Shown piece by piece: positions 4,961 through 49,541 of a stretch of 64,000 nucleotides of DNA (positions within the stretch are counted from its first letter, which is position 1; each line of letters starts with the position of its first letter). The DNA lies in assembly GCF_016907495.1 (NCBI RefSeq), contig NZ_JAFBCC010000001.1, positions 1,736,001 through 1,800,000 on the forward strand, read 5' to 3'. A model generated the notes under the pieces. That model was not told the origin of the DNA. It saw only the letters and a list, made by a program, of their open reading frames with translations, and searched no databases. The position numbers and the translations under genes are program-made. Source of the DNA: Arthrobacter tumbae (lineage in GTDB: Bacteria > Actinomycetota > Actinomycetes > Actinomycetales > Micrococcaceae).

Positions 4961-5023
4961 GAACTTTTGCGCAGGTTCGGCGGCTTCCGGGCGGCGGAAG
5001 TCGCCGGAGGTGCGCAAAAGTTC
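4961..5023. repeat. Inverted repeat GAACTTTTGCGCA / TGCGCAAAAGTTC between dhaM and mutY
   Basis: Two exact 13-bp arms, at 4961-4973 and 5011-5023, flank a GC-rich 37-nt spacer. A third partial copy (TGTGCGCAGAAGTTCCC) lies at about 5030-5047. The element fills the gap between two convergent genes, so it may end transcription from both sides. It differs in sequence from the CAGGACAC palindromes at 36-48 kb. Confidence 0.7.
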
Positions 5024-5052
5024 CCAGGATGTGCGCAGAAGTTCCCCCGGGG

Positions 5053-34244: not shown

Positions 34245-36050
34245 ATGGCTATGCCGATTGAAGATTATGCGCTGATTTCCGATCTCCATACCGGCGCGCT
34301 CGTTTCCCGGGGTGGAAGCGTGGACTGGCTCTGCTACCCGCGGTTCGACTCGGCATCGGTCTTTTCCGCGCTCCTGGGCAACGAGAACCATGGACGGTGG
34401 CTGGTGGCACCTGCGCACGCCGCCGGCGTTGCCGACCTGGTGGAGTGGAAGTACATCGACTCCACCTTCGTGCTGCAGTCCAGATGGCGCACCGAAGCCG
34501 GTGAAGTCCTCGTGACCGACTACATGCCTATCCACGACCGGCGAGCCTCCCTTGCACGCCGCATCGAGGGCATCAGCGGATCAGTGCCGATGCGCCAGGA
34601 GCTGGTGGTGCGCTTCGGCTACGGCGAGGTACTGCCATGGGTACGGCGCACCCATGAGAAGGGTGGTCCCGGAATTCTCGCGATGGCCGGACCGGATGCC
34701 CTGCTCCTGCGCGGTGCCCACCTTCCGCACGCCGCCGATCACCGCCATGTGGGCGAGTTCACGGTTGAAGCCGGTGAAAAAGTGGATCTTGAGCTGGTCT
34801 GGTACCCATCGCACCGTCCGCAACCAACGCCCTTGGACTTCGACGCCACGCTTCAGGCAACCATCGACTACTGGCAGGGCTGGGCGGAAAGCTGCGAGAA
34901 GCAGGGCGAGTATGACGCCATCGTCAAGCGCTCACTCCTGGTGCTGCGCGCCCTGACGCATGAAGACACCGGCGGCATCGTCGCGGCTCCCACCACGTCG
35001 CTGCCCGAGGCCTTCGGCGGCGAGCGGAACTGGGACTACCGGTTCTGCTGGCTACGGGATGCCGCGCTGACCCTCGAAGCGATGATGACGCACGGCTACG
35101 AGGATGAAGCCTCCCAATGGCGGGACTGGTTGCTCCGTGCGGTCGCCGGTGACCCGGAGGATCTCCAGATCATGTACAGCGTTTCGGGTGAGCGGAACCT
35201 GCCGGAGAAAGTCCTTGGGCACCTGCCCGGCTATGCGGACTCCGCTCCCGTCCGGATAGGCAACGGAGCCGTGAGCCAGTACCAGGCCGACGTCGTGGGT
35301 GAAGTGATGGTGGCACTGGAGAAGCTGCGCGAGCGCGGTGTGAAGGAGGACCAATTCTCCTGGCCGCTGCAGCACGCACTGCTGGGTTTCCTGGAGAAAC
35401 ACCTGAACGCCAAGGACCACGGCATCTGGGAGATGCGTGGCGAACCTGCGTACTTCACGCACTCCCGGGTGATGATGTGGGCGGCGTTCGACCGCGGCAC
35501 CCGCGCCGTCCGGGAACACGGGCTCAAGGGTGAGGCGGACCGGTGGGAACAGCTTCGCGATCAGCTCCGCACCGAGATCCTCGAGCAGGGTTTCAGCAGC
35601 GAAGTGAACTCTTTCACGCAGTTCTACGGCACACCGCTGGTGGACGCGTCACTGCTGCAGCTGCCGCAGGTCGGCTTCCTTGACTACGACGACCCGATGA
35701 TGCTCGGTACCGTGGCAAGGCTTGAGGAAGAGCTGCTCGATGACCACGGGCTGCTGCTCCGCTACCGCACCGAATCGTCGATCGATGGTCTGGCGCCCGG
35801 GGAGCATCCATTCCTCGCCTGCTCGTTCTGGCTCGTTGAGCAGTACGCGCATACCGGCCGCCTTCAGGACGCCAAGAAGCTGATGGACCAGCTGGTGGGC
35901 TATGCCAACCAGCTTGGCCTGCTGTCCGAGGAGTACGACGCCGGGAACGCCAGGATGGCGGGGAACTTCCCGCAGGCGTTTTCTCACCTGGGCTTGGTGC
36001 GGGCCGCCGACGCGATCCACGCGGCCCAGCAGGTCTCCCTCGCACGTTGA
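34245..36050 (+). CDS. Glycoside hydrolase family 15 (glucoamylase / trehalase-like)
   Basis: 601 residues without a signal peptide. The N-terminal beta-sandwich opens with PIEDYALISDLHTGALVSRGGSVDWLCYPRFDS, usual for the bacterial GH15 group. The (alpha/alpha)6 barrel has ERNWDYRFCWLRDAALTLEAMM (about 262-283) and, near the C-terminus, EEYDAGNARMAGNFPQAFSH with a catalytic Glu. Relatives act on trehalose (mycobacterial type) or on alpha-1,4-glucans. I cannot tell which substrate applies here. The gene ends 6 nt before the first CAGGACAC palindrome. Confidence 0.92.
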   Translation: MAMPIEDYALISDLHTGALVSRGGSVDWLCYPRFDSASVFSALLGNENHGRWLVAPAHAAGVADLVEWKYIDSTFVLQSRWRTEAGEVLVTDYMPIHDRRASLARRIEGISGSVPMRQELVVRFGYGEVLPWVRRTHEKGGPGILAMAGPDALLLRGAHLPHAADHRHVGEFTVEAGEKVDLELVWYPSHRPQPTPLDFDATLQATIDYWQGWAESCEKQGEYDAIVKRSLLVLRALTHEDTGGIVAAPTTSLPEAFGGERNWDYRFCWLRDAALTLEAMMTHGYEDEASQWRDWLLRAVAGDPEDLQIMYSVSGERNLPEKVLGHLPGYADSAPVRIGNGAVSQYQADVVGEVMVALEKLRERGVKEDQFSWPLQHALLGFLEKHLNAKDHGIWEMRGEPAYFTHSRVMMWAAFDRGTRAVREHGLKGEADRWEQLRDQLRTEILEQGFSSEVNSFTQFYGTPLVDASLLQLPQVGFLDYDDPMMLGTVARLEEELLDDHGLLLRYRTESSIDGLAPGEHPFLACSFWLVEQYAHTGRLQDAKKLMDQLVGYANQLGLLSEEYDAGNARMAGNFPQAFSHLGLVRAADAIHAAQQVSLAR

Positions 36051-36055
36051 GTTCG

Positions 36056-36097
36056 CAGGACACGCCCCTTATGGAAGCTCATAAGGGGCGTGTCCTG
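36056..36097. repeat. Convergent-junction palindrome, copy 1
   Basis: A perfect 17-bp stem: CAGGACACGCCCCTTAT / ATAAGGGGCGTGTCCTG with an 8-nt loop. It is preceded by TGAGTTCG and followed by ATGAATGAACGGG. It fills the gap between the converging GH15 and alcohol dehydrogenase genes and probably stops transcription from both sides. Three related copies lie at 38.5, 44.7 and 48.0 kb. Confidence 0.9.
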
Positions 36098-36113
36098 ATG
36101 AATGAACGGGCAA

Positions 36114-37289
36114 TTAAGGCTTGAGTACCACCTTGATGCAGCTGTCCTCCTTCTTCTGGAAGATCTTGTAGGCATTCGGCGCCTCGGTGAGGGGCACTTC
36201 ATGCGTCTTGAGGTCCATCACGCCTAGTGGGTCCGAGGGATCCTCGACGATCGGCAGCAGTTCGTCCGTCCAGCGCCGCACATTGCATTGGCCCATCCGG
36301 GTCTGGATCTGCTTGTCGAACATGGTCAGCAGCGGCATGGGACTTGCGGTTCCGCCATAAACGCCGCTGAGTGAAACAGTGCCGCCGCGGCGCACGGAGT
36401 CGATGCAGGCGTGAAGTACGGTCAGCCGGTCAACGCCCGCTGTCTCCATCGCCTTTCGGGCAACAGGGTCAGGCAACAGCCCGACGGCGTGCTGCGCGAA
36501 GGCTCCCAGTGGTGAGTTGTGTGCCTCCATGCCGACGGCGTCGACGACGGCGTCCGGTCCGCGCCCGTTGGTCATCTCGCGAAGGACATCACCCGTCTCC
36601 TTGGTGAAGTCGATGGTCTCGATCCCGTGCCTCTCAGCCATCGCCCGCCGCTCGGGGACCGGCTCAACGGCAATGACGCGGTGACCCAGATACTTGCCGA
36701 TTCTGCTTGCGAACTGCCCAACCGGGCCGAGTCCGAAAACGGCGAGCGTACCGCCGTCGGGCACGTCCGCGTACCGGACGCCCTGCCAGGCCGTGGGAAG
36801 AATGTCGGAAAGGTACAGGTATCGCTCATCGGGGAGTTCAGCGCCCACCTTCACCGGACCGTAGTCCGCGTGCGGAACCCGGAGGTATTCAGCCTGCCCA
36901 CCCGGGACGGAGCCATACAGCGCGGAGAATCCAAACAGGGCGGCGCCCGTGCCCTGTTCGTGGACCTGCGTGGTTTCACACTGCGACTGAAGCCCGTGAT
37001 TGCACATCCAGCAATGGCCGCAGGAGATGTTGAACGGGATCACTACGCGGTCACCGGGCTTGAGATTTGCCACGCTGCTGCCGACGGCTTCCACGATTCC
37101 CATGGGTTCGTGCCCCAGGACATCGCCCTTGTGCATGTAGGGTCCCAAAACCTCGTACAGGTGGAGATCCGATCCGCAGATGGCTGTCGAGGTGATGCGG
37201 ACAATGGCGTCCGTCGTGTCCTCGATGCGCGGATCGGGGACTTCCTCAACGCTCACTGATCGCTTGCCCTGCCAGGTAAGTGCCTTCAT
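36114..37289 (-). CDS. Zinc-dependent alcohol dehydrogenase (FDH-like MDR family)
   Basis: 391 residues from the ATG at 37289 with GGAGGA upstream; a longer frame to 37544 is not credible. Catalytic zinc ligands are Cys38 and His60-Glu61 (VLGHEPMGIVEAVG). The structural zinc site is Cys90, Cys93, Cys96 and Cys104. The NAD site is AVFGLGPVGQFASRIGKYLG. The region LGAFAQHAVGLLPDPVARKAME is a long insertion typical of glutathione-independent formaldehyde-dehydrogenase-like MDR enzymes. The substrate is unknown. Three tandem 14-bp repeats lie in its leader. Confidence 0.9.
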   Translation of the reverse strand: MKALTWQGKRSVSVEEVPDPRIEDTTDAIVRITSTAICGSDLHLYEVLGPYMHKGDVLGHEPMGIVEAVGSSVANLKPGDRVVIPFNISCGHCWMCNHGLQSQCETTQVHEQGTGAALFGFSALYGSVPGGQAEYLRVPHADYGPVKVGAELPDERYLYLSDILPTAWQGVRYADVPDGGTLAVFGLGPVGQFASRIGKYLGHRVIAVEPVPERRAMAERHGIETIDFTKETGDVLREMTNGRGPDAVVDAVGMEAHNSPLGAFAQHAVGLLPDPVARKAMETAGVDRLTVLHACIDSVRRGGTVSLSGVYGGTASPMPLLTMFDKQIQTRMGQCNVRRWTDELLPIVEDPSDPLGVMDLKTHEVPLTEAPNAYKIFQKKEDSCIKVVLKP

Positions 37290-37302
37290 CGATACTCCTC
37301 CA

Positions 37303-37344
37303 TGGGTTGGTAAGTATGGGTTGGTAAGTATGGGTTGGTAAGTA
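37303..37344. repeat. 14-bp tandem repeat, three perfect copies, upstream of the dehydrogenase
   Basis: The unit TGGGTTGGTAAGTA starts at 37303, 37317 and 37331 with no mismatch. In the gene's orientation it reads TACTTACCAACCCA, ending 13 nt before the ATG and right next to its ribosome binding site. Confidence 0.92.
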
Positions 37345-37417
37345 TGCTGACCATCTTCAGTATTGCGGCCATGACGCCCGAAGGAAAGAGAGGGCGGGTA
37401 AGGCATACGCTTGGCCG

Positions 37418-38137
37418 GTGGAGTTTTCGAGATCCCCGGCTGTGCGGGTTGGACTGTCAATTGCCGTGGCGACCGGCCTCTACGGGGTGTCTTTCGGTGC
37501 CCTGTCGGTGGCCTCCGGGCTCGACCTCCTGCAAACCATGGCACTGAGCCTCCTGCTGTTCAGCGGCGGTTCACAATTCGCGTTCATCGGCGTGGTGGCC
37601 GGCGGCGGGACCGGGGTGGCCGCGATGTCCGCAGCTTCCCTGCTGGGTATCCGCAATGCCGTCTACGGCATGCAGATGAACGCGATGCTCCGACCGCGCG
37701 GCCTGCGCAGGTTCGCCGCCGCCCAGGTGACCATCGACGAGTCGACGGCGACAGCCACCGGACAGAGCGAGCCGCAGGAACAGTCGCGGGGGTTCTGGGT
37801 GGCCGGCATCGGCATATACGTCTTGTGGAATGTATTGACGCTCGCCGGCGCGCTGCTCGGCAACGCACTCGGTGACCCTGCGCAATGGGGACTGGACGGC
37901 GCTGCCGTCGCTGCCTTCCTCGGGCTGCTGTGGCCACGGTTGAAGGCGCGTGAGCCGGCCGCCATCGCCGTCGTCTGTGCGCTGGTCACCCTGCTCACCG
38001 TTCCGTTTGTGCCTGCCGGCATTCCGATCCTCGTTGCCGCCGCTGTTGCTGCGCTGGCCGGCTGGTTCAGTTCCGGCCCGCCGCGCGAGGGTCTCGAGCC
38101 TGATGTTGAGCCCTACCCCACGGAAGGACACCGGTGA
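37418..38137 (+). CDS. azlC: AzlC family branched-chain amino acid exporter, large subunit
   Basis: 239 residues from a GTG, with about six helices. SIAVATGLYGVSFGALSVASGL and LLFSGGSQFAFIGVVAGGG are AzlC signatures, as is GIRNAVYGMQMNAML. With AzlD it forms a two-component exporter of branched-chain amino acids or their analogues. The gene overlaps azlD as GTGA. No Lrp-type regulator is seen next to it. Confidence 0.93.
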   Translation: MEFSRSPAVRVGLSIAVATGLYGVSFGALSVASGLDLLQTMALSLLLFSGGSQFAFIGVVAGGGTGVAAMSAASLLGIRNAVYGMQMNAMLRPRGLRRFAAAQVTIDESTATATGQSEPQEQSRGFWVAGIGIYVLWNVLTLAGALLGNALGDPAQWGLDGAAVAAFLGLLWPRLKAREPAAIAVVCALVTLLTVPFVPAGIPILVAAAVAALAGWFSSGPPREGLEPDVEPYPTEGHR

Positions 38138-38445
38138 ACCTCTGGATCTGGATCCTCATTGCCTGCGGTATCAGCTACCTCACGAAGCTTGCCGGCTACC
38201 TGGTTCCCGCGCGGCTCATGGAGAACCCGCATATGACCCGCGTTGCCGGCACGTTGACGATCGGGCTGCTTGCGTCCCTGACCGCCGTGAACACCTTTTC
38301 GAGTGGGCAGTCGCTGGTGGTTGATGCGCGCCTCGCGGCCCTTGTTGCAGCAGGGGTGGCGTTGTGGCTGCGGGCGCCGTTCCTCGTCGTCGTGCTGGTG
38401 GGGGCTGGCGCCGCAGCAGTCGCGCGCCTGCTTGGCGCCCCCTAG
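38134..38445 (+). CDS. azlD: AzlD family exporter, small subunit
   Basis: 103 residues with four helices. It starts NLWIWILIACGISYLTKLAGYLVP, and VARLLGAP is the end. The conserved AAGVALWLRAPFLVVVLVGAGAAA matches AzlD proteins. The GTG overlaps the azlC stop by 4 nt. The stop is followed 14 nt later by the second convergent-junction palindrome. Confidence 0.92.
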   Translation: MNLWIWILIACGISYLTKLAGYLVPARLMENPHMTRVAGTLTIGLLASLTAVNTFSSGQSLVVDARLAALVAAGVALWLRAPFLVVVLVGAGAAAVARLLGAP

Positions 38446-38458
38446 CCCCGTGAGTTGG

Positions 38459-38500
38459 CAGGACACACCCCTTTTGCGTCCGCTTTCGGGGTGTGTCCTG
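38459..38500. repeat. Convergent-junction palindrome, copy 2
   Basis: A 13-bp stem, CAGGACACACCCC / GGGGTGTGTCCTG. The left arm has A in place of the G seen in copies 1 and 3, and the right arm carries the matching T change, so the pairing is kept. The flanks TGAGTTGG and CGAAATGAACGG match the other copies. It lies between azlD and ackA. Confidence 0.88.
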
Positions 38501-38518
38501 CGAAATGAACGGTGGGTG

Positions 38519-39646
38519 TCAGGCAGAGCCGACGACGGCGGCAGTCGCCTCCGCGATGGCCGCCTCTTCGTCGGTGGGCACCACGAGGACCGGAAAGGCC
38601 GATTCCTCTGTGCTGATCTCCCGTGGCGAGCCGCCCTGCTTCTGGTTCTCGGCGTCGTCAACGAACACTCCGAGCGCGCCCAGGCGGTTGACCACGCGCT
38701 CCCGGAAACGCCAGGAGTTCTCCCCGATGCCCGCCGTGAACACGAGCGCCTGCGCGCCTCCAACGGCCACGTGGTATCCGCCGATGTACTTCGCAAGACG
38801 GTAGGACGCGATGTCCAACGCCATGGTGCCGGCGGCGTCTCCGGACTCCTCGATCGAACGCATGTCATTGTGCCCGGTGAGGCCCTTGAGCCCGGATTCG
38901 CGGTTGAGCAGCTGATCGAGGTCCTTTTCGGTGTAGCCCTCGCGGCTCAGGAACAGCAGAATCGACGGGTCGATGTCACCGGACCGCGTTCCCATGACCA
39001 GGCCCTCCAGCGGAGTGAACCCCATGGAGGTATCGATGCTGTGGCCATTCTGCACGGCGGTGATGGACGCGCCGTTGCCAAGGTGCGCAATGATGCCCGT
39101 GAACTCCTCCGCCGGCATTCCCAGCAGCGCCGCGGCATGCCTCGTCACATATTCGAAGGACGTGCCGTGAAATCCGTACCTGCGGATGCCGAACTTCTTG
39201 TACAGCTCATCCGGAACGGCGTACCGCCACGCATGCTCGGGCAGGGTGCGGTGGAAGGCCGTATCAAACACCGCCACCTGCGGCATGTCCGGCCACCGCT
39301 CCGCGATAGCGCGCAGGCCCTGCACATTCGCCGGGTTGTGCAGGGGCGCCAGGGGATTGAGCCGGTCGATCGCGCGGATGATCTCGTTGGTGATCAGCAC
39401 GGGTTCACTGAACCGCTCGCCGCCGTGGACCACGCGGTGGCCGACGGCGTCGATGGACTTGCCCTGCAGGGTGGCGTCCAGCTCCTCAGTCACCCGGTCC
39501 AGCGCTTCGGTGTGATCCTTGGGGCCGCCGTTCGCGGTATCACCGATGCGCTCGATCAGCCCGTTGGCCAGGCGTTCCCCGCTCACGGAATCCCGTACCT
39601 GGTACTTGAGTGACGACGAGCCCGAGTTGATGACGAGGATGATCAT
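38519..39646 (-). CDS. ackA: Acetate kinase
   Basis: 375 residues from the ATG at 39646, which overlaps the pta stop as ATGA. It starts IILVINSGSSSLKYQV, the family N-terminus, and has NPANVQGLRAI, VFDTAFH, YGFHGTSFEYV, AHLGNGASI with a catalytic His region, and FTAGIGENSW. It converts acetyl phosphate and ADP to acetate and ATP, or the reverse. It is coupled to pta. Confidence 0.97.
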   Translation of the reverse strand: MIILVINSGSSSLKYQVRDSVSGERLANGLIERIGDTANGGPKDHTEALDRVTEELDATLQGKSIDAVGHRVVHGGERFSEPVLITNEIIRAIDRLNPLAPLHNPANVQGLRAIAERWPDMPQVAVFDTAFHRTLPEHAWRYAVPDELYKKFGIRRYGFHGTSFEYVTRHAAALLGMPAEEFTGIIAHLGNGASITAVQNGHSIDTSMGFTPLEGLVMGTRSGDIDPSILLFLSREGYTEKDLDQLLNRESGLKGLTGHNDMRSIEESGDAAGTMALDIASYRLAKYIGGYHVAVGGAQALVFTAGIGENSWRFRERVVNRLGALGVFVDDAENQKQGGSPREISTEESAFPVLVVPTDEEAAIAEATAAVVGSA

Positions 39647-41736
39647 GGTGCCTCCTGCGCTGGTGTGCCCTGCGCCTGCACGGCCGTGATGGCGACGGTA
39701 TTCACAATATCTTCGACGGTACAACCCCTCGAGAGGTCATTGACCGGCTTGCGCAAACCTTGAAGAACCGGTCCGACGGCGACTGCACCGGCTGACTGCT
39801 GGACCGCCTTGTACGTGTTGTTGCCTGTATTCAGATCGGGGAATATAAACACCGTGGCCTGTCCCGCGACCGACGATCCGGGGAGCTTGGACTGGGCTAC
39901 GGAAGCATCCACCGCGGCGTCGTACTGGATGGGCCCTTCGACCGGCAGGTCAGGGCGGATCGAGCGCACCAGCTCCGTTGCCCGCCGCACCTCGTCCACC
40001 GCGCCTCCGTAACCCGACTCCCCGGTGGAGTAGGAGAGCATGGCCACCCGCGGTTCGACCCCGAATTGGGCAGCCGTTTCAGCCGACGCCACGGCGATAT
40101 CCGCCAGTTGTTCCTCCGTGGGGTCCGGATTCACCGCGCAGTCTCCATAGACCAGGACGCGGTCGCGGAGCAGCATCAGGAACACCGAGGACACAATTGT
40201 CACGCCCTTCTTCGTTTTCACGAACTCGAGCGCCGGCCGGATGGTGTTCGCGGTGGTGTGGGCTGCGCCGGAGACCATGCCGTCAACGTAACCGAGCTGG
40301 ACCATCATGGTTCCGAAGTACGAGCCATCGAGCATGCGGTCCCGCGCGTCGTCGAGCGAGACGTTCTTGTGTGCACGCAGCCGCGCGTACTCCGCAGCGA
40401 ATTCCTCGCGCAGGTCCGAGGTTGCCGGGTCCAGCAGGGTCAGCCCGGTCAGGTCCACGCCGAGGCCTGCGGCACGCTCGCGCAGCTGCCCCTCCGGTCC
40501 GAGGATCGTCAGGTCGCAGACATCCCGGCGCCGCAGGATCTCAGCCGCACGAAGAATGCGTTCGTCCAGGCCCTCCGGCAGAACCACATGCTTGCGGTCC
40601 GCGCGGGCCTTCTCAATGAGCTCGTGCAGGAAGCGCAGCGGAGTCATCTTCACCGGCCGGGGCAGCTCAAGCCGCTCCAGCAGCTCCGTCGCATCCACCT
40701 GCCGTGCCCACACACCGAGCGCCGCGGCGGACTTCCGGCGCAGGCCGGTCGCTATCTCGCCGCGCACCTCACTGACGCGTTTGGCGGCGGTGTAGGTGTC
40801 GTCGTCGACCGCGAAGACCGGGAAGGTGGCGTGTGCAAGCAGGGCAAGAATATTCGGGTCCGGCGTCAGGCCGCCGGTAAGAATCATGCCGGAGGGTACG
40901 GGGAATTCAGGCGAGAACGACGACGCCACGGTCGCTACCAGCACATCCGCCCGGTCTCCGGGAACAATCACCAGGGCGCCGTCGGTGAGCAGTTCAAGGA
41001 AGTGACCCACGTTCATGGCGGCAACACGGATGGAGGAAACGTCCCGCTCGAGGGTCGCGCCGCCGGCGATGTGGCGCGCGTTCAGGGCGCCCGCAACCTC
41101 GGCCATGGTTGGCTGGGAGATCTCGCTCAGTTCCGGGATGACATACACCGGCCGGCCGGACTTCCCCGGGCGCACCTGCTCGCGGATTGCATCAACGGCG
41201 CCCTCCCCGGCGCGGTTCACCATCATCGCCAGCAGGGACACCTCCGCTGCGTCCAGTTCCCTGCGCGCGACGTCGACGGCGTCAGCAGCCTCAGCGGCCG
41301 TCATGTCCTTCGCGCTCACCACGGCAAGCACCATGGCGCCAAGGTTGTTTGCCAGCCGTGCGTTGAGATCAAACTCGACGGCGGCGTCCTGGCCGCTCAG
41401 ATCGGTTCCCTCCACGATGATGACGTCGCAGGACTGCGCCATCTCGCTGTACACAGCGACGGAGCGCGCATCGATTTCCTCGCGCTCGCCGGACACGAGC
41501 AGCGCCCGGGCCTCCGCCCGCGTCATGCCGCTCCTTGCGGTCTTCTCATCCAGCCCGAACGCCCGCCGCATCAGGAGGACCATCGGATCGTCATTGCCGT
41601 CCTCCGCTTCCGAGATAGGCCGAAGGAAGCCGATCCGGTCTGCGTGCCCCTGCAGCATGCTGGCCAACCCCAGGGAGATGAGCGACTTGCCGGACCCGGG
41701 GGCCATGGCGCTGACATAAATTCCGCGGGTGGTCAT
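39643..41736 (-). CDS. pta: Phosphate acetyltransferase (long form)
   Basis: 697 residues from the ATG at 41736, preceded by CAGGATGAAGGA. Residues 1-200 are a BioD-like P-loop domain (APGSGKSLISLGL near residue 12), followed by a DRTGG domain (about 215-330) and the catalytic PTA_PTB domain (about 375-697) with YGDCAVNPDPT and SYSTGESGYGG. It makes acetyl phosphate from acetyl-CoA. With AckA it forms the acetate overflow and uptake route. It is divergent from the thiamine-binding gene, whose ATG is 136 nt away. Confidence 0.96.
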   Translation of the reverse strand: MTTRGIYVSAMAPGSGKSLISLGLASMLQGHADRIGFLRPISEAEDGNDDPMVLLMRRAFGLDEKTARSGMTRAEARALLVSGEREEIDARSVAVYSEMAQSCDVIIVEGTDLSGQDAAVEFDLNARLANNLGAMVLAVVSAKDMTAAEAADAVDVARRELDAAEVSLLAMMVNRAGEGAVDAIREQVRPGKSGRPVYVIPELSEISQPTMAEVAGALNARHIAGGATLERDVSSIRVAAMNVGHFLELLTDGALVIVPGDRADVLVATVASSFSPEFPVPSGMILTGGLTPDPNILALLAHATFPVFAVDDDTYTAAKRVSEVRGEIATGLRRKSAAALGVWARQVDATELLERLELPRPVKMTPLRFLHELIEKARADRKHVVLPEGLDERILRAAEILRRRDVCDLTILGPEGQLRERAAGLGVDLTGLTLLDPATSDLREEFAAEYARLRAHKNVSLDDARDRMLDGSYFGTMMVQLGYVDGMVSGAAHTTANTIRPALEFVKTKKGVTIVSSVFLMLLRDRVLVYGDCAVNPDPTEEQLADIAVASAETAAQFGVEPRVAMLSYSTGESGYGGAVDEVRRATELVRSIRPDLPVEGPIQYDAAVDASVAQSKLPGSSVAGQATVFIFPDLNTGNNTYKAVQQSAGAVAVGPVLQGLRKPVNDLSRGCTVEDIVNTVAITAVQAQGTPAQEAP

Positions 41737-41872
41737 TCCTTCATCCTGCACGATCGAAGGGGCATAGTCACTGCCGAAGCCGCTCCCGGCGGCTTCATCC
41801 GCCGGCCTGTTGAACGAATCAAAACGTCCGGAACGGGTGACCGGCGCGGCCAAACCTGACAGACTGTGTCCC

Positions 41873-42226
41873 ATGCTCGTAGCCTTCTCAGTAGCACCTT
41901 CCGGCCGGCCCAGCGGGGCGCATCAGGACACCACCGGGAACGGCGACGGCTCGGTTCACGCCGCGGTGGCCGAAGCGGTCAAGATCGTGCGTGACTCCGG
42001 CCTGCCGAACTCCACCAGTTCCATGTTCACCGAGATCGAGGGTGAGTGGGATGAAGTGATGGACGTGGTCAAACGCGCTACTGAGGCAGTGGCCAAGTAC
42101 GGAAGCCGCGTCTCCCTGGTCCTCAAGGCGGACATCCGCCCAGGTCATACGGGCGAACTTGCCGGAAAAGTGGAGCGCCTTGAGCGCGCGATCGATGAGA
42201 TGGACGAGTACCAGGGTCACTCATGA
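41873..42226 (+). CDS. Thiamine-binding protein, MTH1187/YkoF family (DUF77)
   Basis: 117 residues from the ATG at 41873. It has VAFSVAPSG, then VAEAVKIVRDSGLPNSTSSMFTEIEGEWDEVMDVVKRA, and SLVLKADIRPG, all standard for this ferredoxin-fold family. Relatives bind thiamine or hydroxymethylpyrimidine in the cytoplasm; some act with thiamine-precursor transport. The stop overlaps the start of an O-methyltransferase gene as ATGA, a pairing of unclear meaning. Confidence 0.88.
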   Translation: MLVAFSVAPSGRPSGAHQDTTGNGDGSVHAAVAEAVKIVRDSGLPNSTSSMFTEIEGEWDEVMDVVKRATEAVAKYGSRVSLVLKADIRPGHTGELAGKVERLERAIDEMDEYQGHS

Positions 42227-42867
42227 CTAAGTGGGCAGAGGTGGACGGCTACCTGAACCGCACGGTGGTCCGGCCTGACGACGCACTCCTCGCGGCCGTC
42301 GAAAATACCCGAACTGCAGGAATGCCTGCCATTGAAGTCACGGCCGGGCAAGGCAAGTTCCTGATGCTGCTTGCCCGTATTCATCAGGCGAAGAGGGTGC
42401 TGGAAATCGGCACGCTGGGCGGCTTCAGCACCACCTGGCTCGCACGGGGCCTTCCTGAGGACGGCACCGTTGATACCTGCGAATACGAGCCGGCCCACGC
42501 AGAGGTGGCCCGGCGCAATCTGGAGGCGGCCGGCGTCGGACACAAGGTGACTGTTCACGTGGGAGCGGCTCTGGAGACGCTGCCGACGCTCACAGGGCCC
42601 TATGACCTGTTCTTCATTGACGCCGACAAGGCGAACAATCCCAACTATCTGGAGTGGGCGGTGAAGCTGTCCCGCCCGGGATCGGTCATTGTGCTGGACA
42701 ACGTGGTGCGCGGAGGCGGCGTGCTGGACGAGAGCGGCGACGACGACATCCAAGGCACCCGCAGGGCGCTGGAACTGCTCGGCAGCCATCCGCGCCTGGA
42801 AGCGACAGCCCTGCAGACAGTTGGATCCAAGGACTGGGATGGGTTCGCGGTCGCCATCGTCAACTAG
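42223..42867 (+). CDS. Class I SAM-dependent O-methyltransferase (family 3, CCoAMT-like)
   Basis: 214 residues. The SAM loop is RVLEIGTLGGFSTTWLA (about 60-76), then CEYEPAHAEVARRNLEAAG. The metal-binding FFIDADKANNPNYLEWA (about 130-146) and LDNVVRGGGVLD match caffeoyl-CoA-type O-methyltransferases, which use Mg2+ and act on catechol-like hydroxyls. The physiological acceptor is unknown. Its ATG overlaps the preceding thiamine-binding gene. Confidence 0.9.
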   Translation: MTKWAEVDGYLNRTVVRPDDALLAAVENTRTAGMPAIEVTAGQGKFLMLLARIHQAKRVLEIGTLGGFSTTWLARGLPEDGTVDTCEYEPAHAEVARRNLEAAGVGHKVTVHVGAALETLPTLTGPYDLFFIDADKANNPNYLEWAVKLSRPGSVIVLDNVVRGGGVLDESGDDDIQGTRRALELLGSHPRLEATALQTVGSKDWDGFAVAIVN

Positions 42868-42917
42868 AGCGCACCTACAACCACTGCACGTGAGGAACCG
42901 GCGTCGTTCCCGATAGC

Positions 42918-43481
42918 ATGAACGGCATGGCCACTATCCGTCCGCTCCGCAGCGAGGAGACCGAAGCTGCGCTGCGCATGAAGAACCAGGGGTGGCGCCA
43001 GGCCTACCGGGGGAAGGTCCGCGAAGAGATCCTGGATGACCTGGATGACGGCATCGAGGCGATCGCGGAAGCGTGGAGGCAGGGGTTCGATGAGAGCGGG
43101 AGCGTGCCGTTTGTAGCGGTCGACGACGACGGCGCGATTGTCGGTATTGCTGCGGGCGGTGAGGCGAGGGGTGATAACCCTCCTGCCGCCGTCGAACTTT
43201 TCATGCTGTACGTGCTGGAGGAGTATTACGGCACCGGTCTGGGCCGGGCGCTGGCCGATGCCGCGATCGGCGGCGCCGCCGCATGCGTCTGGGTCCTTGA
43301 GGGCAACGAACGCGCCACCGCCTTCTACCGCAAGCTCGGCTTTGTTCCCGACGGCGAGCGTGAGCAGCTGTCCGAACGGTGGAACGGCCTTCATGAGATT
43401 CGGATGGTGCGCACTGCCTGCGCCGTCGATCCGCCGCGCATCAGCGCTGCCGCACCGGGTTCACAACTGACAGGGGAATGA
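42918..43481 (+). CDS. GNAT family N-acetyltransferase
   Basis: 187 residues. ATIRPLRSEETEAALRMKNQGWRQAYRG opens the fold, and the acetyl-CoA loop follows YVLEEYYGTGLGRALADAAIGG (about 98-118). FYRKLGFVPDGE is the usual C-terminal signature. Substrate unknown. No clear ribosome binding site is seen, so the start could be the ATG at 42927. The TM2 gene starts 1 nt after the stop. Confidence 0.85.
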   Translation: MNGMATIRPLRSEETEAALRMKNQGWRQAYRGKVREEILDDLDDGIEAIAEAWRQGFDESGSVPFVAVDDDGAIVGIAAGGEARGDNPPAAVELFMLYVLEEYYGTGLGRALADAAIGGAAACVWVLEGNERATAFYRKLGFVPDGEREQLSERWNGLHEIRMVRTACAVDPPRISAAAPGSQLTGE

Positions 43482-43482
43482 C

Positions 43483-43797
43483 GTGTCCAACTACTACGGG
43501 AACCAGCCGCCTCAACACGTGGTGGTGTACGCCGCGAAGGAAAGCTGGCTCGCCTATCTGCTCTGGTTCCTGCTTGGGAACTTCGGCGCCCACAAGTTCT
43601 ACCTGCGCCAGAACGGGATGGGCTTCCTCTACCTGGGTCTGGGCCTGATCGGCTACGCCACGGCGTGGTTCGTGCTCGGGTTCCTGTTCCTGATACCGCT
43701 GTGGATCATGATGGTCATTGACCTGTTCACCATTCCGGGCAGGGTGCGGCAGGTCAACGGCCACCTGCACTACCAGGGTGCAGTCCGTCCGTACTAG
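43483..43797 (+). CDS. TM2 domain-containing membrane protein
   Basis: 104 residues from a GTG with AGGGGAA upstream. The TM2 hallmark is seen: KESWLAYLLWFLLGNFGAHKFYLRQNGMGFLYLG, then a second hydrophobic hairpin ending WIMMVIDLFTIPGRV with the conserved Asp. Function is unknown. Tightly packed after the GNAT gene. Confidence 0.9.
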   Translation: MSNYYGNQPPQHVVVYAAKESWLAYLLWFLLGNFGAHKFYLRQNGMGFLYLGLGLIGYATAWFVLGFLFLIPLWIMMVIDLFTIPGRVRQVNGHLHYQGAVRPY

Positions 43798-43831
43798 CGA
43801 AGAGCGCCACCAGTTGAAAGCGTAAGGATCA

Positions 43832-44668
43832 GTGGGACGTCAACGGGAACGCAAAGGAACGGCGGGCACCGACGGCGGTCCGGTTCCCGGCCTTCACACC
43901 ATCGACACCGGTACGTGTGAACTGGTCCCGGACCGGTTCAATCCGAATGGCTGGGTGCTCCACGTCAACGGTGTGCCGAGCTCGCACATAGACCTGACCG
44001 ATCCTGCCCGGCTCGACTTCGAGTACATGCGCTGGATCAGTTCGCTGGCAACCTCGCAGTGGCCGTCCACGTTCCGGCTGCGAGCGCTGCATCTCGGCGG
44101 AGGGGCGTGCTCCCTGGCGCGGAGTTTTGCCGTGACCTTTCCCGATGCACGGCAGGTGGTCGTCGAGCTCGACGGCGCGCTCGCGGCCCTGGTGCGCGAG
44201 TGGTTCGACCTGCCCCGGGCGCCGCTGCTGCGGATCCGCGTGGGGGAGGCCCGTGAGGTCACTGAATCGCTGTCCGCGAGCAGCCGGGACCTCATCATCC
44301 GGGACGCCTTCGCAGGCAGCCGCACTCCAGCCCCGCTGACCACCGTCGAGTTCGTTGAGCACGCCAAGCGGGTCCTGGACGCGACCGGCGTCTATGTCGT
44401 CAACTGTGGGGACGCACCTGACCTGGTGATGGCCCGACGCGAGGCAGCGACCATCTCCGCGGCCTTCGCCCATACCGTGATCATTGCGGACCCGGCGATG
44501 CTCAAGGGCCGGCGCTACGGGAACGTCATTCTTGCCGGAAGCGATGCACCACTGGGTGAAGATCCCGGCCTGGCCCGCGAGTTGCTCGGCGGCGGCGTTC
44601 CTGCCCACCTGTTGCGGAACGCGCAGGTGACCCGCTTCATTAGCGGCGCCGCAGTCCTCACGGACTAG
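43832..44668 (+). CDS. Spermidine synthase-like (polyamine aminopropyltransferase-fold) protein
   Basis: 278 residues. The Rossmann nucleotide site reads ALHLGGGACSLARSFAVTFPDARQVVVELDGAL (about 87-120) and the equivalent of the catalytic Asp region is LIIRDAFAGSRTP (about 152). VYVVNCGDAPDL follows. It lacks the N-terminal membrane helices found in some actinobacterial homologues. The family includes true aminopropyltransferases and methyltransferase-like proteins, so polyamine synthesis is not certain. GTG start with AAGGA close by. Confidence 0.78.
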   Translation: MGRQRERKGTAGTDGGPVPGLHTIDTGTCELVPDRFNPNGWVLHVNGVPSSHIDLTDPARLDFEYMRWISSLATSQWPSTFRLRALHLGGGACSLARSFAVTFPDARQVVVELDGALAALVREWFDLPRAPLLRIRVGEAREVTESLSASSRDLIIRDAFAGSRTPAPLTTVEFVEHAKRVLDATGVYVVNCGDAPDLVMARREAATISAAFAHTVIIADPAMLKGRRYGNVILAGSDAPLGEDPGLARELLGGGVPAHLLRNAQVTRFISGAAVLTD

Positions 44669-44678
44669 CTTGAGTTTG

Positions 44679-44720
44679 CAGGACACGCCCCTAATGCAGC
44701 GTCAAAAGGGGCGTGTCCTG
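44679..44720. repeat. Convergent-junction palindrome, copy 3
   Basis: A perfect 14-bp stem, CAGGACACGCCCCT / AGGGGCGTGTCCTG, loop AATGCAGCGTCAAA. The flanks are TGAGTTTG and CCAATTCGACGGG. It separates the converging spermidine-synthase-like and LysR genes. Confidence 0.9.
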
Positions 44721-44734
44721 CCAATTCGACGGGT

Positions 44735-45631
44735 TCAGTCCCTACCCAGCAGCCTGCCCTCGAAGGCGTCCGTCGCCTCCCGAAGCGCACCGACGACGGC
44801 GGCAACCGCCGGTTGCCGGAGCGAATCGGGACGCGCCACCAGCCAGTAACCCAACCGCTCGGCGACCTCCTCAGGCAGCAGCCGAACCAGGTCGCTATGC
44901 AGGTTGGCCATGAAGCACGGCAGCAGGCCGATGCCGGCACCGGCACGCGTGGCTTCTACATGGACGAACACGTTGGTCGAACTCAGCGAATCCTTCATGC
45001 TCGGCAGCAGGCGCCGCGGCGCGTCAAGGCTGTCGACCTGCAGCATCGAGTCGATGAAGTAGACGAGCGGGTGGGCCAGGACCTCCTCGATCGTCGACGG
45101 CCTGCCGTACTCGGCCAGATAGTCCCGCGAAGCGTACAGGCCCAGCACATACTCACCCAGCCGGATTGCCTCGGCACGGTGGACCTGCGGACGCCCGACA
45201 ACCACCTCGAGATCCAGCCCGCTGCGGGTCTGCGACGCCCGCCGGGTCGCCGCGACGATCTCGACGCTGAGCTGCGGGTGATCGCGCCTCAGCCGCGCAA
45301 AAGCCGGCGCCGCGATATAGGCACTGAAACCGTCAGTGGCACTGATGCGCACGACGCCGGAGAGCCGGCTTGCGCCGTCGTCGTTCGCTTCCAGCGCCGA
45401 AAGCGCGCGCTCGACCTCCTCCGCGGCGGCAACCGCGCGCAATCCAAGGTCCGTCAGCTCCCAACCGCCGCTCGCGCGCACGAGCACGTGCCCGCCCAGG
45501 GAGCGCTCGAGGACGGAGATGCGCCGGGAGACCGTGGTGTGGTTCAGCCCCAGGCTCTCGGCCGCTGAGGTGAAACGGCCGGTATGGGAAACAGCAAGGA
45601 GGATGAGCAGATCATCGGGCTGAAGGGACAT
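44735..45631 (-). CDS. LysR family transcriptional regulator
   Basis: 298 residues. The start at ATG 45631 begins SLQPDDLLILLAVSHTGRFTSAAESLGLNHTTVSRRISVLERSLG, the family's winged HTH; the frame is open 13 codons more. The effector domain follows from about residue 90. The gene is divergent from an MHS-family transporter and a 3-hydroxybutyrate dehydrogenase-like gene, so these are its likely targets. An inverted repeat fitting a LysR box lies directly before its start. Confidence 0.92.
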   Translation of the reverse strand: MSLQPDDLLILLAVSHTGRFTSAAESLGLNHTTVSRRISVLERSLGGHVLVRASGGWELTDLGLRAVAAAEEVERALSALEANDDGASRLSGVVRISATDGFSAYIAAPAFARLRRDHPQLSVEIVAATRRASQTRSGLDLEVVVGRPQVHRAEAIRLGEYVLGLYASRDYLAEYGRPSTIEEVLAHPLVYFIDSMLQVDSLDAPRRLLPSMKDSLSSTNVFVHVEATRAGAGIGLLPCFMANLHSDLVRLLPEEVAERLGYWLVARPDSLRQPAVAAVVGALREATDAFEGRLLGRD

Positions 45632-45658
45632 ATCTGCATTTTCGCAGATTAGGTCTGC
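45632..45658. promoter_or_regulatory. Candidate LysR-type operator
   Basis: ATCTGC-ATTTTC-GCAGAT (45632-45649) is a perfect palindrome with AT-rich centre, and GCAGA-TTAGG-TCTGC overlaps it (45644-45658). It lies at the 5' end of the lysR gene, as is usual for autoregulatory LysR sites. Confidence 0.6.
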
Positions 45659-45717
45659 GCAACTGGTCATTGAAGTGCCTTTGACTGTGCAGCCATACTC
45701 AATGAGGCCCGAACCCG

Positions 45718-45768
45718 GTGACAGTCGTCACAAACGTCTCATCAGACGGAAAGTGTCAGCGCCGACAC
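45718..45768 (+). promoter_or_regulatory. Palindromes in the MHS transporter promoter region
   Basis: GTGAC-AGTC-GTCAC at 45718-45731 and GTGTC-AGCGCC-GACAC at 45753-45768 lie 15-65 nt upstream of the transporter start. The first has the same half-sites as the fruR palindrome. They may be LysR or other regulator sites; not proven. Confidence 0.45.
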
Positions 45769-45782
45769 AGAAGGAGCAACAC

Positions 45783-47189
45783 ATGAGCGTCAGTTCCCGT
45801 CCAGCCCGCCCCGGAGGGGGAAAAGCCGGCAATCCGGCTGGAAACACCGACGAGGCACCAACAGGCCTCAAGAAGATCGTCGCGGCCTCAATGGTCGGCA
45901 CAGTCGTCGAGTGGTACGAATTCTTCCTCTACGCAACGGCCGCCTCGCTGGTATTCGGCATCGTGTTCTTCCCCAACGCGGACACCCCGCTGGATGCGAT
46001 CATCGCGGCCTTCCTGACCTACGCCGTCGGCTTCATCGCCCGCCCTCTCGGAGGTATCTTCTTCGGGCAGATCGGTGACAAGCTGGGCCGCAAGCACACG
46101 CTTCAGGTCACCATCATCCTGGTTGGCGTAGCCACGTTCCTCATGGGCTGCCTGCCCGGGTTCAACTCGATCGGCTACTGGGCGCCGGCACTGCTGGTGA
46201 TCCTCCGCTTCGTCCAGGGCTTCGCGGTGGGAGGCGAGTGGGGCGGTGCAGTCCTGCTGGTCGCCGAACACAGCCCCAACAAGTCCCGCGGATTCTGGTC
46301 CAGCTGGCCGCAGGCCGCTGTGCCCGTCGGGAACCTGCTGGCAACCGTGGTGCTGCTGACGATGTCCTCGATCCTGCCGGAGGACGAGTTCATCAGCTGG
46401 GGCTGGCGCGTGGCCTTCTGGCTCTCAGCCATCATCGTGGTCATCGGCTACTACATCCGCACCCACGTGAGTGAATCGCCAATCTTCCTTGAGGCACGCG
46501 AGCAGGTCGAGCGCGAAAAGGCAATCAGCTACGGCGTCTTCGAGGTAGTGAAGAAGTACCCCAAGGGCATCCTCGGCGCCATGGGCCTGCGGTTCGCGGA
46601 GAACATCCTCTACTACATCATCGTCAGCTTCTCCATCGTCTACCTCTCCCAGGTCCACGAGTACAACACCAGTTCACTGCTCCTGGCGCTGCTGATCGCC
46701 CACGTGGTGCACTTCTTCGTGATCCCGCAGGTCGGCCGGCTGTCGGACAAGTTCGGACGCAAGCCCGTGTACCTCGCGGGTGCTGTCCTCGGCGCAAGCT
46801 GGGCATTCTTCGCCTTCCCGATGTTCGACACCCAGAACCCCGTGATCATCATCCTGGCCGTGACGATCGGACTGTGCTTCCACGCCCTGATGTACGCCGG
46901 CCAGCCCGCGATCATGGCGGAGATGTTCCCCACCCGCATGCGCTACTCCGGTGTGTCCCTCGGCTATCAGGTCACGTCGATCCTTGCGGGATCGCTCGCG
47001 CCGATCATCGCCACCGCGATCCTGCAGGAAACCGGATCATGGCTCGGCGTGGCACTCTATGTCCTCGGCGCCTGCGTTGTGACGGCGATTGCCGTCCTCA
47101 CCCTGCGCGAAACGCGCGGAGCGTCGCTGCGGGACATCGATGCTGCCGACGCTGAGCGCCACGGCATTTCGGTCGGCAGGGACAGCTAG
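45783..47189 (+). CDS. MFS transporter, metabolite:H+ symporter (MHS) family
   Basis: 468 residues from the ATG at 45783 with AGAAGGAGC upstream. Twelve helices. The MHS features are MVGTVVEWYEFFLYATAASLVFG (helix 1), FGQIGDKLGRKHTL (loop 2-3), FVQGFAVGGEWGGAVLL and ARPLGG. The substrate is unknown; the family carries organic acids such as citrate, ketoglutarate and related compounds. The dehydrogenase gene follows after 2 nt, so the pair suggests uptake and oxidation of a hydroxy acid such as 3-hydroxybutyrate. Confidence 0.92.
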   Translation: MSVSSRPARPGGGKAGNPAGNTDEAPTGLKKIVAASMVGTVVEWYEFFLYATAASLVFGIVFFPNADTPLDAIIAAFLTYAVGFIARPLGGIFFGQIGDKLGRKHTLQVTIILVGVATFLMGCLPGFNSIGYWAPALLVILRFVQGFAVGGEWGGAVLLVAEHSPNKSRGFWSSWPQAAVPVGNLLATVVLLTMSSILPEDEFISWGWRVAFWLSAIIVVIGYYIRTHVSESPIFLEAREQVEREKAISYGVFEVVKKYPKGILGAMGLRFAENILYYIIVSFSIVYLSQVHEYNTSSLLLALLIAHVVHFFVIPQVGRLSDKFGRKPVYLAGAVLGASWAFFAFPMFDTQNPVIIILAVTIGLCFHALMYAGQPAIMAEMFPTRMRYSGVSLGYQVTSILAGSLAPIIATAILQETGSWLGVALYVLGACVVTAIAVLTLRETRGASLRDIDAADAERHGISVGRDS

Positions 47190-47191
47190 GG

Positions 47192-48016
47192 ATGCCTGCG
47201 GCACACCAGAACGACGACGGCGGCTTGCGCCCCATCGCACAGTCGCCGTCGTTTCACTCACCCGCTCCAGCCGGATTGCTCGCCGGGCGGCGTGCGATCG
47301 TCACCGGCGGGGCGAGCGGCATAGGCGCCGCCTGCGCGCGCGACTTGGCAGCACAGGGCGCGTACGTGGTGGTGGCGGACCGGGACGCGGAGGGTGCCGG
47401 CGTCGTCGCCAAGGAAATCAAGGGCGAAGCGTGGGCCGTTGACCTGCTGGACACGGCGGCGCTGGAGGACTTGACCCTCGACGCGGACATCCTGGTGAAC
47501 AACGCCGGGATCCAGGTCGTCCAGCCTATTGAGGAGTTTGATCCGGCTGACTTCCGGCGTATCCACACGCTCATGCTTGAGGTGCCGTTCCTCCTGATGC
47601 GTGCCACCCTGCCGTCGATGTACGCGAAGAACTTCGGCCGGATCATCAACGTGTCTTCGGTGCACGGGCTGCGGGCGTCCGCCTTCAAGTCCGCCTACGT
47701 GTCCGCCAAGCACGGGCTGGAGGGGCTTTCCAAGGTTGCGGCGCTGGAAGGCGGGCCACACGGAGTTACGAGCAACTGCGTTAACCCCGGCTACGTGCGG
47801 ACGCCGCTCGTGGAGAACCAGATCGCCGACCAGGCGCGGCTGCATGACATCAGCGAGGATGAGGTCCTCGAGCAGATCATGCTCACCGAGAGCGCAATCA
47901 AGCGCCTGGTGGAGCCGTCGGAGGTTGCCTCACTCGTTGCATGGCTGGCGTCCGGGCAGGCCGGGATGGTGACCGGCGCGTCCTACACCATGGACGGCGG
48001 CTGGTCCGCGCGCTGA
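47192..48016 (+). CDS. SDR oxidoreductase, 3-hydroxybutyrate dehydrogenase-like
   Basis: 274 residues with an unconserved extension of about 30 before the SDR core. TGGASGIG (38-45) binds NAD(P); NNAG is at 103-106; the catalytic Ser155/156, Tyr169 and Lys173 (YVSAK) are present. Segments such as ALEGGPHGVTSNCVNPGYVRTPLVENQIADQA and the C-terminal TGASYTMDGGWSAR match D-3-hydroxybutyrate dehydrogenases, which yield acetoacetate. A role in polyhydroxybutyrate or hydroxybutyrate use is inferred. The stop is followed by a palindrome. Confidence 0.85.
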   Translation: MPAAHQNDDGGLRPIAQSPSFHSPAPAGLLAGRRAIVTGGASGIGAACARDLAAQGAYVVVADRDAEGAGVVAKEIKGEAWAVDLLDTAALEDLTLDADILVNNAGIQVVQPIEEFDPADFRRIHTLMLEVPFLLMRATLPSMYAKNFGRIINVSSVHGLRASAFKSAYVSAKHGLEGLSKVAALEGGPHGVTSNCVNPGYVRTPLVENQIADQARLHDISEDEVLEQIMLTESAIKRLVEPSEVASLVAWLASGQAGMVTGASYTMDGGWSAR

Positions 48017-48030
48017 GCCCGATGAGTTGG

Positions 48031-48072
48031 CAGGACACCCCCCTGATGCGCGTGCAAAAGGGGCGTGTCCTG
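48031..48072. repeat. Convergent-junction palindrome, copy 4
   Basis: CAGGACACCCCCCT / AGGGGCGTGTCCTG, 13 of 14 pairs, 14-nt loop GATGCGCGTGCAAA. The flanks are TGAGTTGG and CCGAATCAACGGGTGGG. It lies between the SDR gene and the converging NCS2 permease gene. Confidence 0.88.
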
Positions 48073-48089
48073 CCGAATCAACGGGTGGG

Positions 48090-49541
48090 TCAGGCGACGC
48101 CGAGCAGCTGCTCGATCGGGCCGATGCCGAAGAACACCACGAACGCGCCCGCCACGGCCCACATGAGCGGGTGGATCTCCTTCGCCCTGCCCTGGAACGT
48201 GCGGACCAGAACGTACGCGATGAATCCGGCGCCCAGTCCGTTGGCAATCGAGTAGGTGAACGGCATCAGCGTGAACGTCAGGAAGGCAGGAATGGCGATA
48301 CCCCAGTCCTGCCAGTCGATTCGGCCCACCTGGGACACCATCATGAAACCGACGACGACGAGGGCCGGCGCCACCGCCTCGAACGGTACCAGCGAGATCA
48401 GCGGCGTGAAGAACATGGCCACGAGGAACAGCATGCCCGTCACGATGTTGGCGATGCCGGTGCGTGCGCCTTCACCGATACCCGCGCCGGATTCCACGTA
48501 GATCTGGTTCGAGGAGACTGATCCCGCTCCGCCGGCCACCGCTCCGAGAGCGTCAACGATGAGGACGCGGTTGACGCCGGGAATGTTGCCCTGCCTGTCC
48601 ACCAGCTTTGCTTCGTTGGCCAGGCCCACCATGGTGCCCATGGCGTCGAAGAAGATGCTGAGCAGGATGGTGAAGGTGAGCAGCAGGGCGGCGGTGGCGC
48701 CGAGGCTGCCGAACGCACCGAAGACGCTGACGCTGCCGACGAGGCTCAGGTCGGGAAGCCCGATCCACGCTCCGGAGGGAAGCTCCGGAACAACGAGCGA
48801 CCAGCCCTGCGGGTTGGAGCCGTCCGGTCCCACGCTGGGCCCGACGTTTGCCACGGCTTCGATGATGACAGCGAGGAGGGTCGCAGCGATGACACCGATC
48901 AGGATGCCGCCGCGAACCTTCCGGACCACCAGCGCGATGGTGAGGATGAGGCCGAAGACAAACACCAGGGTGGGCCAGCCGAGGAGCACGCCCTCGAAAC
49001 CCAACCCGACCGGGACTGTGGTCTGCGCGACATCCGGAACGCGCCGTACAAAGCCCGCGTTCACCAGTCCGATCAGGGCGATGAAGAGCCCGATGCCGAC
49101 GACGATCGCTGTCTTCAGGCTCTCCGGCACCGCGTTGAAAACGGCGGTCCGGAAGCCGGTGAGGACCAGCACAAGCATGGTGAGGCCGGCAAGAACCACG
49201 AGACCCATCATGTCCGGCCAGGTGAGCTCCGGATTGGTGGCCACCGTAATGGCCACGAAGGCGTTGACGCCCAGTCCGGTGGCCAGGGCGAAGGGGTACT
49301 TCGCCCAGGCGCCCATGAGGATGGTGAGCAGCCCCGCAACGAGGGCGGTCACCGCCGCCACGCGTTCAAATCCCAGACTGCCTCCGCTCGCGTCCGCTCC
49401 GGCAAGGATCAGGGGGTTGAGCACCACGATGTAGCTCATGGCGAAGAAGGTGGCGATGCCGCCCCTGATCTCGCGCGAGTAGGTTGATCCGCGGGCGGTG
49501 AGCTGGAAGTAGCGGTCCGTCGCGGTGCGCAGTTCAGGCAC
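48090..49541 (-). CDS. NCS2 family purine permease (guanine/hypoxanthine AzgA-like)
   Basis: 483 residues from the GTG at 49541 with AGAGGA upstream; the open frame extends 52 codons further but without family support. About twelve to fourteen helices. It begins FQLTARGSTYSREIRGGIATFFAMSYIVVLNPLIL, an AzgA-type opening, and has AKYPFALATGLGVNAFVAITV and FFDAMGTMVGLANEA. Relatives import adenine, guanine or hypoxanthine with protons. No riboswitch motif was seen upstream. Confidence 0.93.
   Translation of the reverse strand: MPELRTATDRYFQLTARGSTYSREIRGGIATFFAMSYIVVLNPLILAGADASGGSLGFERVAAVTALVAGLLTILMGAWAKYPFALATGLGVNAFVAITVATNPELTWPDMMGLVVLAGLTMLVLVLTGFRTAVFNAVPESLKTAIVVGIGLFIALIGLVNAGFVRRVPDVAQTTVPVGLGFEGVLLGWPTLVFVFGLILTIALVVRKVRGGILIGVIAATLLAVIIEAVANVGPSVGPDGSNPQGWSLVVPELPSGAWIGLPDLSLVGSVSVFGAFGSLGATAALLLTFTILLSIFFDAMGTMVGLANEAKLVDRQGNIPGVNRVLIVDALGAVAGGAGSVSSNQIYVESGAGIGEGARTGIANIVTGMLFLVAMFFTPLISLVPFEAVAPALVVVGFMMVSQVGRIDWQDWGIAIPAFLTFTLMPFTYSIANGLGAGFIAYVLVRTFQGRAKEIHPLMWAVAGAFVVFFGIGPIEQLLGVA

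Follow-up and report, generated by a model that had tools for sequence, protein, structure and literature searches.

Four similar palindromes, each in a gap between two genes that point at each other, lie between about 36 and 48 kb in a 64,000-nucleotide stretch of the Arthrobacter tumbae genome (contig NZ_JAFBCC010000001.1, positions 1,736,001 to 1,800,000; hereafter the window), which raises the question of what such elements, here called family A, do at these places. The answer that we favour, at a probability of roughly 60%, is that family A is a lineage-specific repeat family, similar to the repetitive extragenic palindromes (REPs), of bidirectional 3'-end (terminator) hairpins that lack a uridine tract (U-tract). 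A bidirectional 3'-end hairpin is favoured because of the size and symmetry of the elements, their position close to stop codons and their absence from divergent gaps, and because sister genera show compensatory stems and relatives have other strong hairpins at a gene end that was compared.

According to this explanation, the transcript of either strand would fold into a similar long stem, which would most likely end transcription, or protect the 3' end of the mRNA after termination slightly downstream, without a U-tract, and a single copy in a convergent gap could serve both genes. Termination at the copies is something we infer from their sequence, as we do the reading of their core and the route by which they are copied. 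Below, A. tumbae stands for the genome that holds the window (G000), and the other labels with G denote other sampled genomes.

Family A at gene 3' ends

Direct inspection placed the four palindromes, with the flanks TGAGTTNG and ACGG, where they had been reported in the sequence-only reading, an earlier description of this DNA made without database searches (Table 1). The core of each arm is CAGGACACRCCC, which changes slowly. In 30 aligned copies the full element is an inverted repeat of about 66-70 nt, longer than the core, with an arm that reads inward CGTTGA[GTA]TTGG-CAGGACAC[GA]CCCC[TG]... and a variable centre, and the mean fold energy of 34 copies was -41.7 kcal/mol. The upstream gene of copy 1 ends with the TGA at 36048-36050, which belongs to the left arm of this copy. 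In at least five A. tumbae copies the TGA of an arm is positioned as the stop codon of a neighbouring gene, and at one G025 site (C8:91499) the TGAs of both arms fit as stop codons.

The paired arrangement with fixed spacing was matched exactly 8 times in the 3.70 Mb chromosome, and 30 times at up to three mismatches, compared with no matches for the reversed control pattern, therefore the arrangement is non-random. The bare 14-mer at up to three mismatches was barely above chance, with 18 matches against 12.4 expected (a number reached in 3 of 100 shuffles), and of 61 matches to the half-site at up to one mismatch all but one lay within a palindrome. By a covariance model search, family A occupies 38 places in the genome, 37 of them strong and one weak. 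No match was obtained for one A. tumbae copy among phage and plasmid records, nor for the four window copies in Rfam at the gathering score, where the copy L007 gave only microRNA-family matches, all below the cut-offs.

Uptake signals are often unpaired. DNA uptake signals that also act as terminators, in the style of Neisseria and the Pasteurellaceae, could account for paired inverted copies in tail-to-tail gaps, which match the description given for Neisseria (Kingsford et al., PMC1852404). Such signals generally number at least 1,000 copies (PMC1852404), compared with the 38 places and the one unpaired half-site seen here, which makes this explanation highly improbable.

Genes were called with our own codon-score caller, of which the starts are rough. 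The window has 14 convergent gaps, and the four between 36051 and 48089 hold family A, each copy nearly filling its gap of 63-73 nt. The impression that every convergent gap of this section is filled was correct as a count (four of four), in an interval that is bounded by its own first and last copy. The remaining ten convergent gaps of the window were likewise confirmed to lack family A, one of them (4960-5024) holding a second palindrome, family B.

Across the A. tumbae genome, 18 copies lie in convergent gaps, 18 in co-directional gaps past the upstream stop, one inside a coding sequence and none in divergent gaps; the last of the 38, site 2877109, has no left gene in the stretch examined and is therefore unclassified, its orthologues in G025 and G018 being convergent. 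The background of 241 gaps in 264 kb, which takes in the window itself, consists of 156 co-directional, 44 convergent and 41 divergent gaps, and among the 132 gaps that measure 40 nt or more, 40 are divergent. The 44 placed copies of G025 are divided into 19 convergent, 24 co-directional and one inside a gene, and 12 of the about 39 in G018 that were examined into seven, four and one, again with none in a divergent gap. With no divergent copy in A. tumbae, G025 or G018, placement is strongly non-random with respect to gene orientation. The restriction to convergent gaps that the sequence-only reading had proposed did not hold, as about half of the A. tumbae copies lie between co-directional genes. 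The core starts 4-40 nt after the nearest stop codon, apart from one copy at 81 nt, and in the 18 co-directional gaps it begins 4-81 nt after the upstream stop (10-30 nt in 14 of them). The placement rule is gene 3' ends, not convergent gaps as such.

Family A was matched in 15 of the 57 genomes sampled, A. tumbae included. Of the 34 genus-mates in this sample, six hold between 9 and 44 places (44 in G025, 37 in G018, 21 in G002, 17 in G004, 14 in G023 and 9 in G022), six hold one or two and 22 hold none. Throughout the bacterial family, for which the label Micrococcaceae rests on its named members, matches were found in at least 47 of 395 genomes and at least 12 of 32 genera, the copy counts being lower bounds with 12 candidates scored per genome. 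Twenty foreign copies fetched from eight other genera are inverted repeats of about 61-70 nt with different words, mostly with near-perfect stems of 24-32 bp. In the sister genus g53, for example, the word is CATCGAGATGGCAGAAACTGCCCGTATGA, and a model of it found about 73 and 72 places in two genomes (about 72 in G168), numbers that may be low, having been drawn from 150 scored candidates. Run on two genus-mates of A. tumbae that are free of family A, the same model gave one match in one genome and none in the other. Twenty of the G168 sites, among the better-scoring, were examined, and 16 were convergent, four co-directional and none divergent. With these different spellings in related genera, the palindromes seem to be gene-end markers of a family that changes quickly, and not an isolated oddity.

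Arm pairing and core conservation

The paired change in copy 2 had been taken as a sign that the structure is selected. The change is real; on its own it is no proof, because covariation is at chance over 30 copies of the genome, which were picked by their symmetric pattern. At the variable position of copy 2 the arms agreed in 37 of 90 copies from three genomes, less often than the 46.8 expected. Compensatory change as proof of an RNA structure within the A. tumbae genome was rejected on the result for these 30 copies. Preferential pairing of two half-site types (AA with TT) gave p values of 0.046 in A. tumbae, 0.008 in G025 and 0.35 in G018, a weak signal from genomes that are not independent.

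Compensatory change was found in the sister genera. In the g53 stem, both sides had changed in 14 of 28 pairs (44 such cells), and across genera in 24 of 27 pairs (106 cells); in neither case was any of 500 shuffles as high. The alignment across genera consisted of one A. tumbae copy and 14 foreign copies, the 20 that had been fetched minus six further ones from g53. The models used to find the foreign and g53 copies include the stem, a choice that is biased towards pairing.

Within each arm, the core is conserved in its sequence too. In 23 orthologous pairs between A. tumbae and G025, differences were counted at 9 of 506 core positions, compared with 80 of 506 in the outer arm and 99 of 368 in the inside; a single G/A position of the core differed at 12 of 46. 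These are 23 of 29 pairs, six with copies of other lengths being left out, and core change is possibly understated. As the core evolves far more slowly than the remainder of the palindrome, for which a hairpin by itself gives no reason, it may be read by a protein or by an RNA-polymerase contact, or be kept by continuing homogenisation.

The conservation in each arm, together with the genus-specific replacement of the core, would also fit a co-evolving binding protein, and the inverted arms a dimer. The palindrome would then be the binding site of a nucleoid or insulating protein, with its gene-end position secondary, for example absorbing supercoils between convergent genes, and the rarity of half-sites outside the palindrome agrees with this. 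We consider it improbable, since the numerous copies between co-directional genes lie near one stop only, and the compensatory arm changes within g53 and between genera favour a folded strand over a duplex site.

Gain and loss of copies

Judged by their flanks, 29 of the 44 G025 copies have an orthologue in A. tumbae, five are absent from it with both flanks found and ten are unassigned, the comparison being limited to the A. tumbae stretches examined. G018 has an orthologue of each of the four window copies. At the five sites without a copy in A. tumbae, two keep an arm remnant, two are gaps with unrelated sequence and one is a near-clean difference of 68 nt. Loss is likelier at this last site, because it is filled in G018 and empty in G002, with a possible arm remnant.

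At a 3' end where the A. tumbae copy was lost, 21 of 26 genus-mates without the element there had a different strong hairpin, its stem 13-27 positions long, and six of these 21 had a T-run of four or more. This comparison covered 30 of the 38 genomes of the genus, and of the two genes that border the gap the 26 share just the right-hand one. For A. tumbae control gaps of at least 40 nt, strong hairpins were found in 10 of 74 co-directional gaps, 1 of 40 divergent gaps and 7 of 18 convergent gaps, where family A copies account for two of the seven. The finder used in both comparisons misses mismatched stems; it did not detect the filled G018 site or two of the window's four copies.

A gain was shown in a carboxyltransferase fusion gene (CT_C_D/CT_A_B; L139:4491-6260, corresponding to 2550789-2552558 of A. 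tumbae), in which a family A copy forms a 25-codon in-frame insert. Of the 20 genomes inspected, G000, G025 and G018, which are three species, have the insert and the remaining 17 do not. G002 is very close to A. tumbae in this gene, yet it is without the insert and has ancestral-looking residues, therefore exchange or precise loss must also have occurred. New copies would be rare and appear as inserted units, some of them perhaps derived from another copy a few kb off, and deletion would account for losses.

An alternative is a purely selfish miniature element, similar to REPs or to miniature inverted-repeat transposable elements and moved by some transposase, which is merely tolerated at 3' ends since insertion elsewhere is harmful. 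The patchy occurrence in the genus, the in-frame insert and the presence/absence differences between A. tumbae and G025 are in favour of this, and so is clustering: nine neighbouring pairs lie less than 7 kb apart (2.6 expected, p 0.0004), and clustered neighbours are somewhat more alike internally (permutation p 0.014). A search for the Y1 (REP-associated) transposase (PF01797), which the sequence-only reading had suggested, found none in A. tumbae and none in 12 carriers, compared with 5 of 14 control genomes that have it. No clear target-site duplication was seen at the aligned polymorphic sites, where boundaries were blurred and two sites had arm remnants. Dead copies would also drift evenly, in contrast to the slow core described above, and the five sites without a copy in A. 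tumbae show deletion or replacement with no decayed core. On balance a purely selfish element is unlikely.

Several observations weigh against the bidirectional 3'-end hairpin. There is no U-tract: on either side of 34 copies, the 12 nt that follow the element contain a mean of 2.4 T and at most 5. Some copies begin 4-5 nt past the stop, and a terminator placed that close behind a gene, at a distance of a few bp, was reported to be almost inactive in E. coli (PMC4824070). Covariation between arms within the genus is at chance, except for two loop-proximal pairs (17-18) that are clearly above shuffles, and the changes in the 23 orthologous pairs between A. tumbae and G025 were 127 one-sided, 9 compensatory and 11 other two-sided. 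The strand polarity of G.U versus A.C mismatches in co-directional copies gave no clear signal either way (33 to 19 in A. tumbae, from which site 3315795 was omitted, and 28 to 24 in G025), and was reversed (7 to 18) in an "unshared" G025 subset that wrongly included the shared copy C2:16768. One family A copy sits inside a gene, and in 5 of the 26 genus-mates the 3' end that was compared lacks a strong hairpin.

It is still debated how transcripts of actinobacteria come to an end at hairpins that have no U-tract. Gene ends that are orthologous and carry the element, an ordinary hairpin or neither are natural experiments among close relatives, in a family with members that are easy to find. 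With no REP transposase found, one may ask of the genus-specific cores and the in-frame insert what copies such elements and what reads them. As a tentative extension, which we regard as possible and rather doubtful, the Micrococcaceae could have a system for "spelling" 3' ends, in which each genus has its own palindrome of 64-70 nt and a co-evolving, sequence-specific RNA- or DNA-binding factor, termination is two-sided without a U-tract, and machinery other than a REP-associated tyrosine transposase (RAYT) copies the words from one gene end to another and even into a reading frame.

Family B, which looks related to family A and is of similar size, fills much of the convergent gap 4959-5052. 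Eight palindromes of 65-66 nt, the window one included, were found in the about 0.56 Mb of A. tumbae examined, three in convergent gaps, five in co-directional and none in divergent ones, with the pattern matched by both arms in five and by one arm only in three. There is one more place in G018 (L213:45-105), and one A. tumbae copy is absent from the orthologous G025 gap. A degenerate copy contains GTTTTGTACAG, and its closeness to a g31 copy (L172) suggests, without proving, common descent. Near a position at which A. tumbae and G018 have a family B palindrome, G025 has imperfect short CTATCCCATTAGCAGG-like repeats (L181:1-100).

Table 1. Palindromes of families A and B in the window and the genes that border the family A copies
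Feature	Position in window	Strand	Remark
Family A copy 1	36042..36111	none	core 36056-36097
Family A copy 2	38445..38514	none	core 38459-38500; A/T for G/C at core position 8
Family A copy 3	44665..44734	none	core 44679-44720
Family A copy 4	48017..48086	none	core 48031-48072
Family B palindrome	4960..5024	none	GGAACTTTTGCGCAG..., 65 nt
Glycosyl hydrolase family 15 gene	34251..36050	+	ends at copy 1; start as called
Zinc alcohol dehydrogenase gene	36114..37289	-	facing at copy 1
AzlD-like gene	38134..38445	+	ends at copy 2
Acetate kinase gene	38519..39646	-	facing at copy 2
Gene without Pfam match	43832..44668	+	ends at copy 3
LysR-type regulator gene	44735..45631	-	facing at copy 3
Short-chain dehydrogenase gene	47192..48016	+	ends at copy 4
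Xan_ur_permease (Pfam) gene	48090..49541	-	facing at copy 4

For the gene ending at copy 1, the nearest named match is from A. subterraneus (89%). In one gene row of G025 (L202) and G018 (L216), two near-identical copies flank one gene; from our reading of the sequence, we take the row to be a dihydrodipicolinate-synthase-like gene, a short-chain dehydrogenase, a fumarylacetoacetate-hydrolase-like gene and a CoA-transferase. In the G025 draft, the contigs C4, C5, C8, C18 and C19 stop no more than about 3 kb from an element, which may reflect assembly breaks at the palindromes. The window also has three tRNA genes in a row (55371-55711) and one more at 19044-19116, all ordinary.

Comparison with known systems

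REPs are described as palindromes of 20-40 bp tagged with GTAG or CGTC, one unpaired tetranucleotide each, the CGTC type being apparently without an associated Y1 transposase (Di Nocera et al. 2013, PMC3733652). Family A is similar to them in that many short palindromes are present per genome, in genus- or species-specific types with several types in one genome, mostly 3' of genes in convergent or co-directional gaps and occasionally inside genes; it differs in that the elements are 64-70 nt and symmetric. Arthrobacter and the actinobacteria are not mentioned in the main text of that paper. An unpaired GTAG or CGTC at one end was not seen, the outer ends of the two arms being mostly CGTT and paired in most copies. 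The REP-like bidirectional terminator proposed in the sequence-only reading is therefore supported in its palindrome, its stop-proximal site and its REP-like distribution, and not in a tag or a Y1/RAYT. Of the traits of a canonical intrinsic (Rho-independent) terminator, the GC-rich hairpin just past the stop is present and the U-tract is absent.

TRIT of Mycobacterium tuberculosis, said to go back to the RNIE work of Gardner et al. in 2011, is reportedly a repeated, sequence-conserved 3'-end hairpin that was read as a terminator. By this description, family A is similar to it, as a repeated conserved hairpin at gene 3' ends in an actinobacterial lineage. The name TRIT occurs in PMC3526491. 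In the open-licence literature, no title or abstract opening was found that describes these elements in Arthrobacter, one species of which is named in a table of counts in PMC12306157.

Uptake-signal terminators share with family A a hairpin made from two inverted copies of a conserved word and a tail-to-tail preference, and differ in having words of 9-11 nt (PMC1852404). The Rickettsia palindromic elements are likewise found as in-frame palindromic inserts in protein genes, here at one locus in three species, although their length is about 150 bp and many of them lie in genes, compared with one of 38 places here, and SPRITE, the pneumococcal rho-independent terminator-like element, is similar by description as a repeated, terminator-like hairpin (PMC10969869). 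Since the tag, the RAYT and the U-tract were each looked for and not found, family A is filed here under neither tagged REPs nor canonical terminators, and it would work like both.

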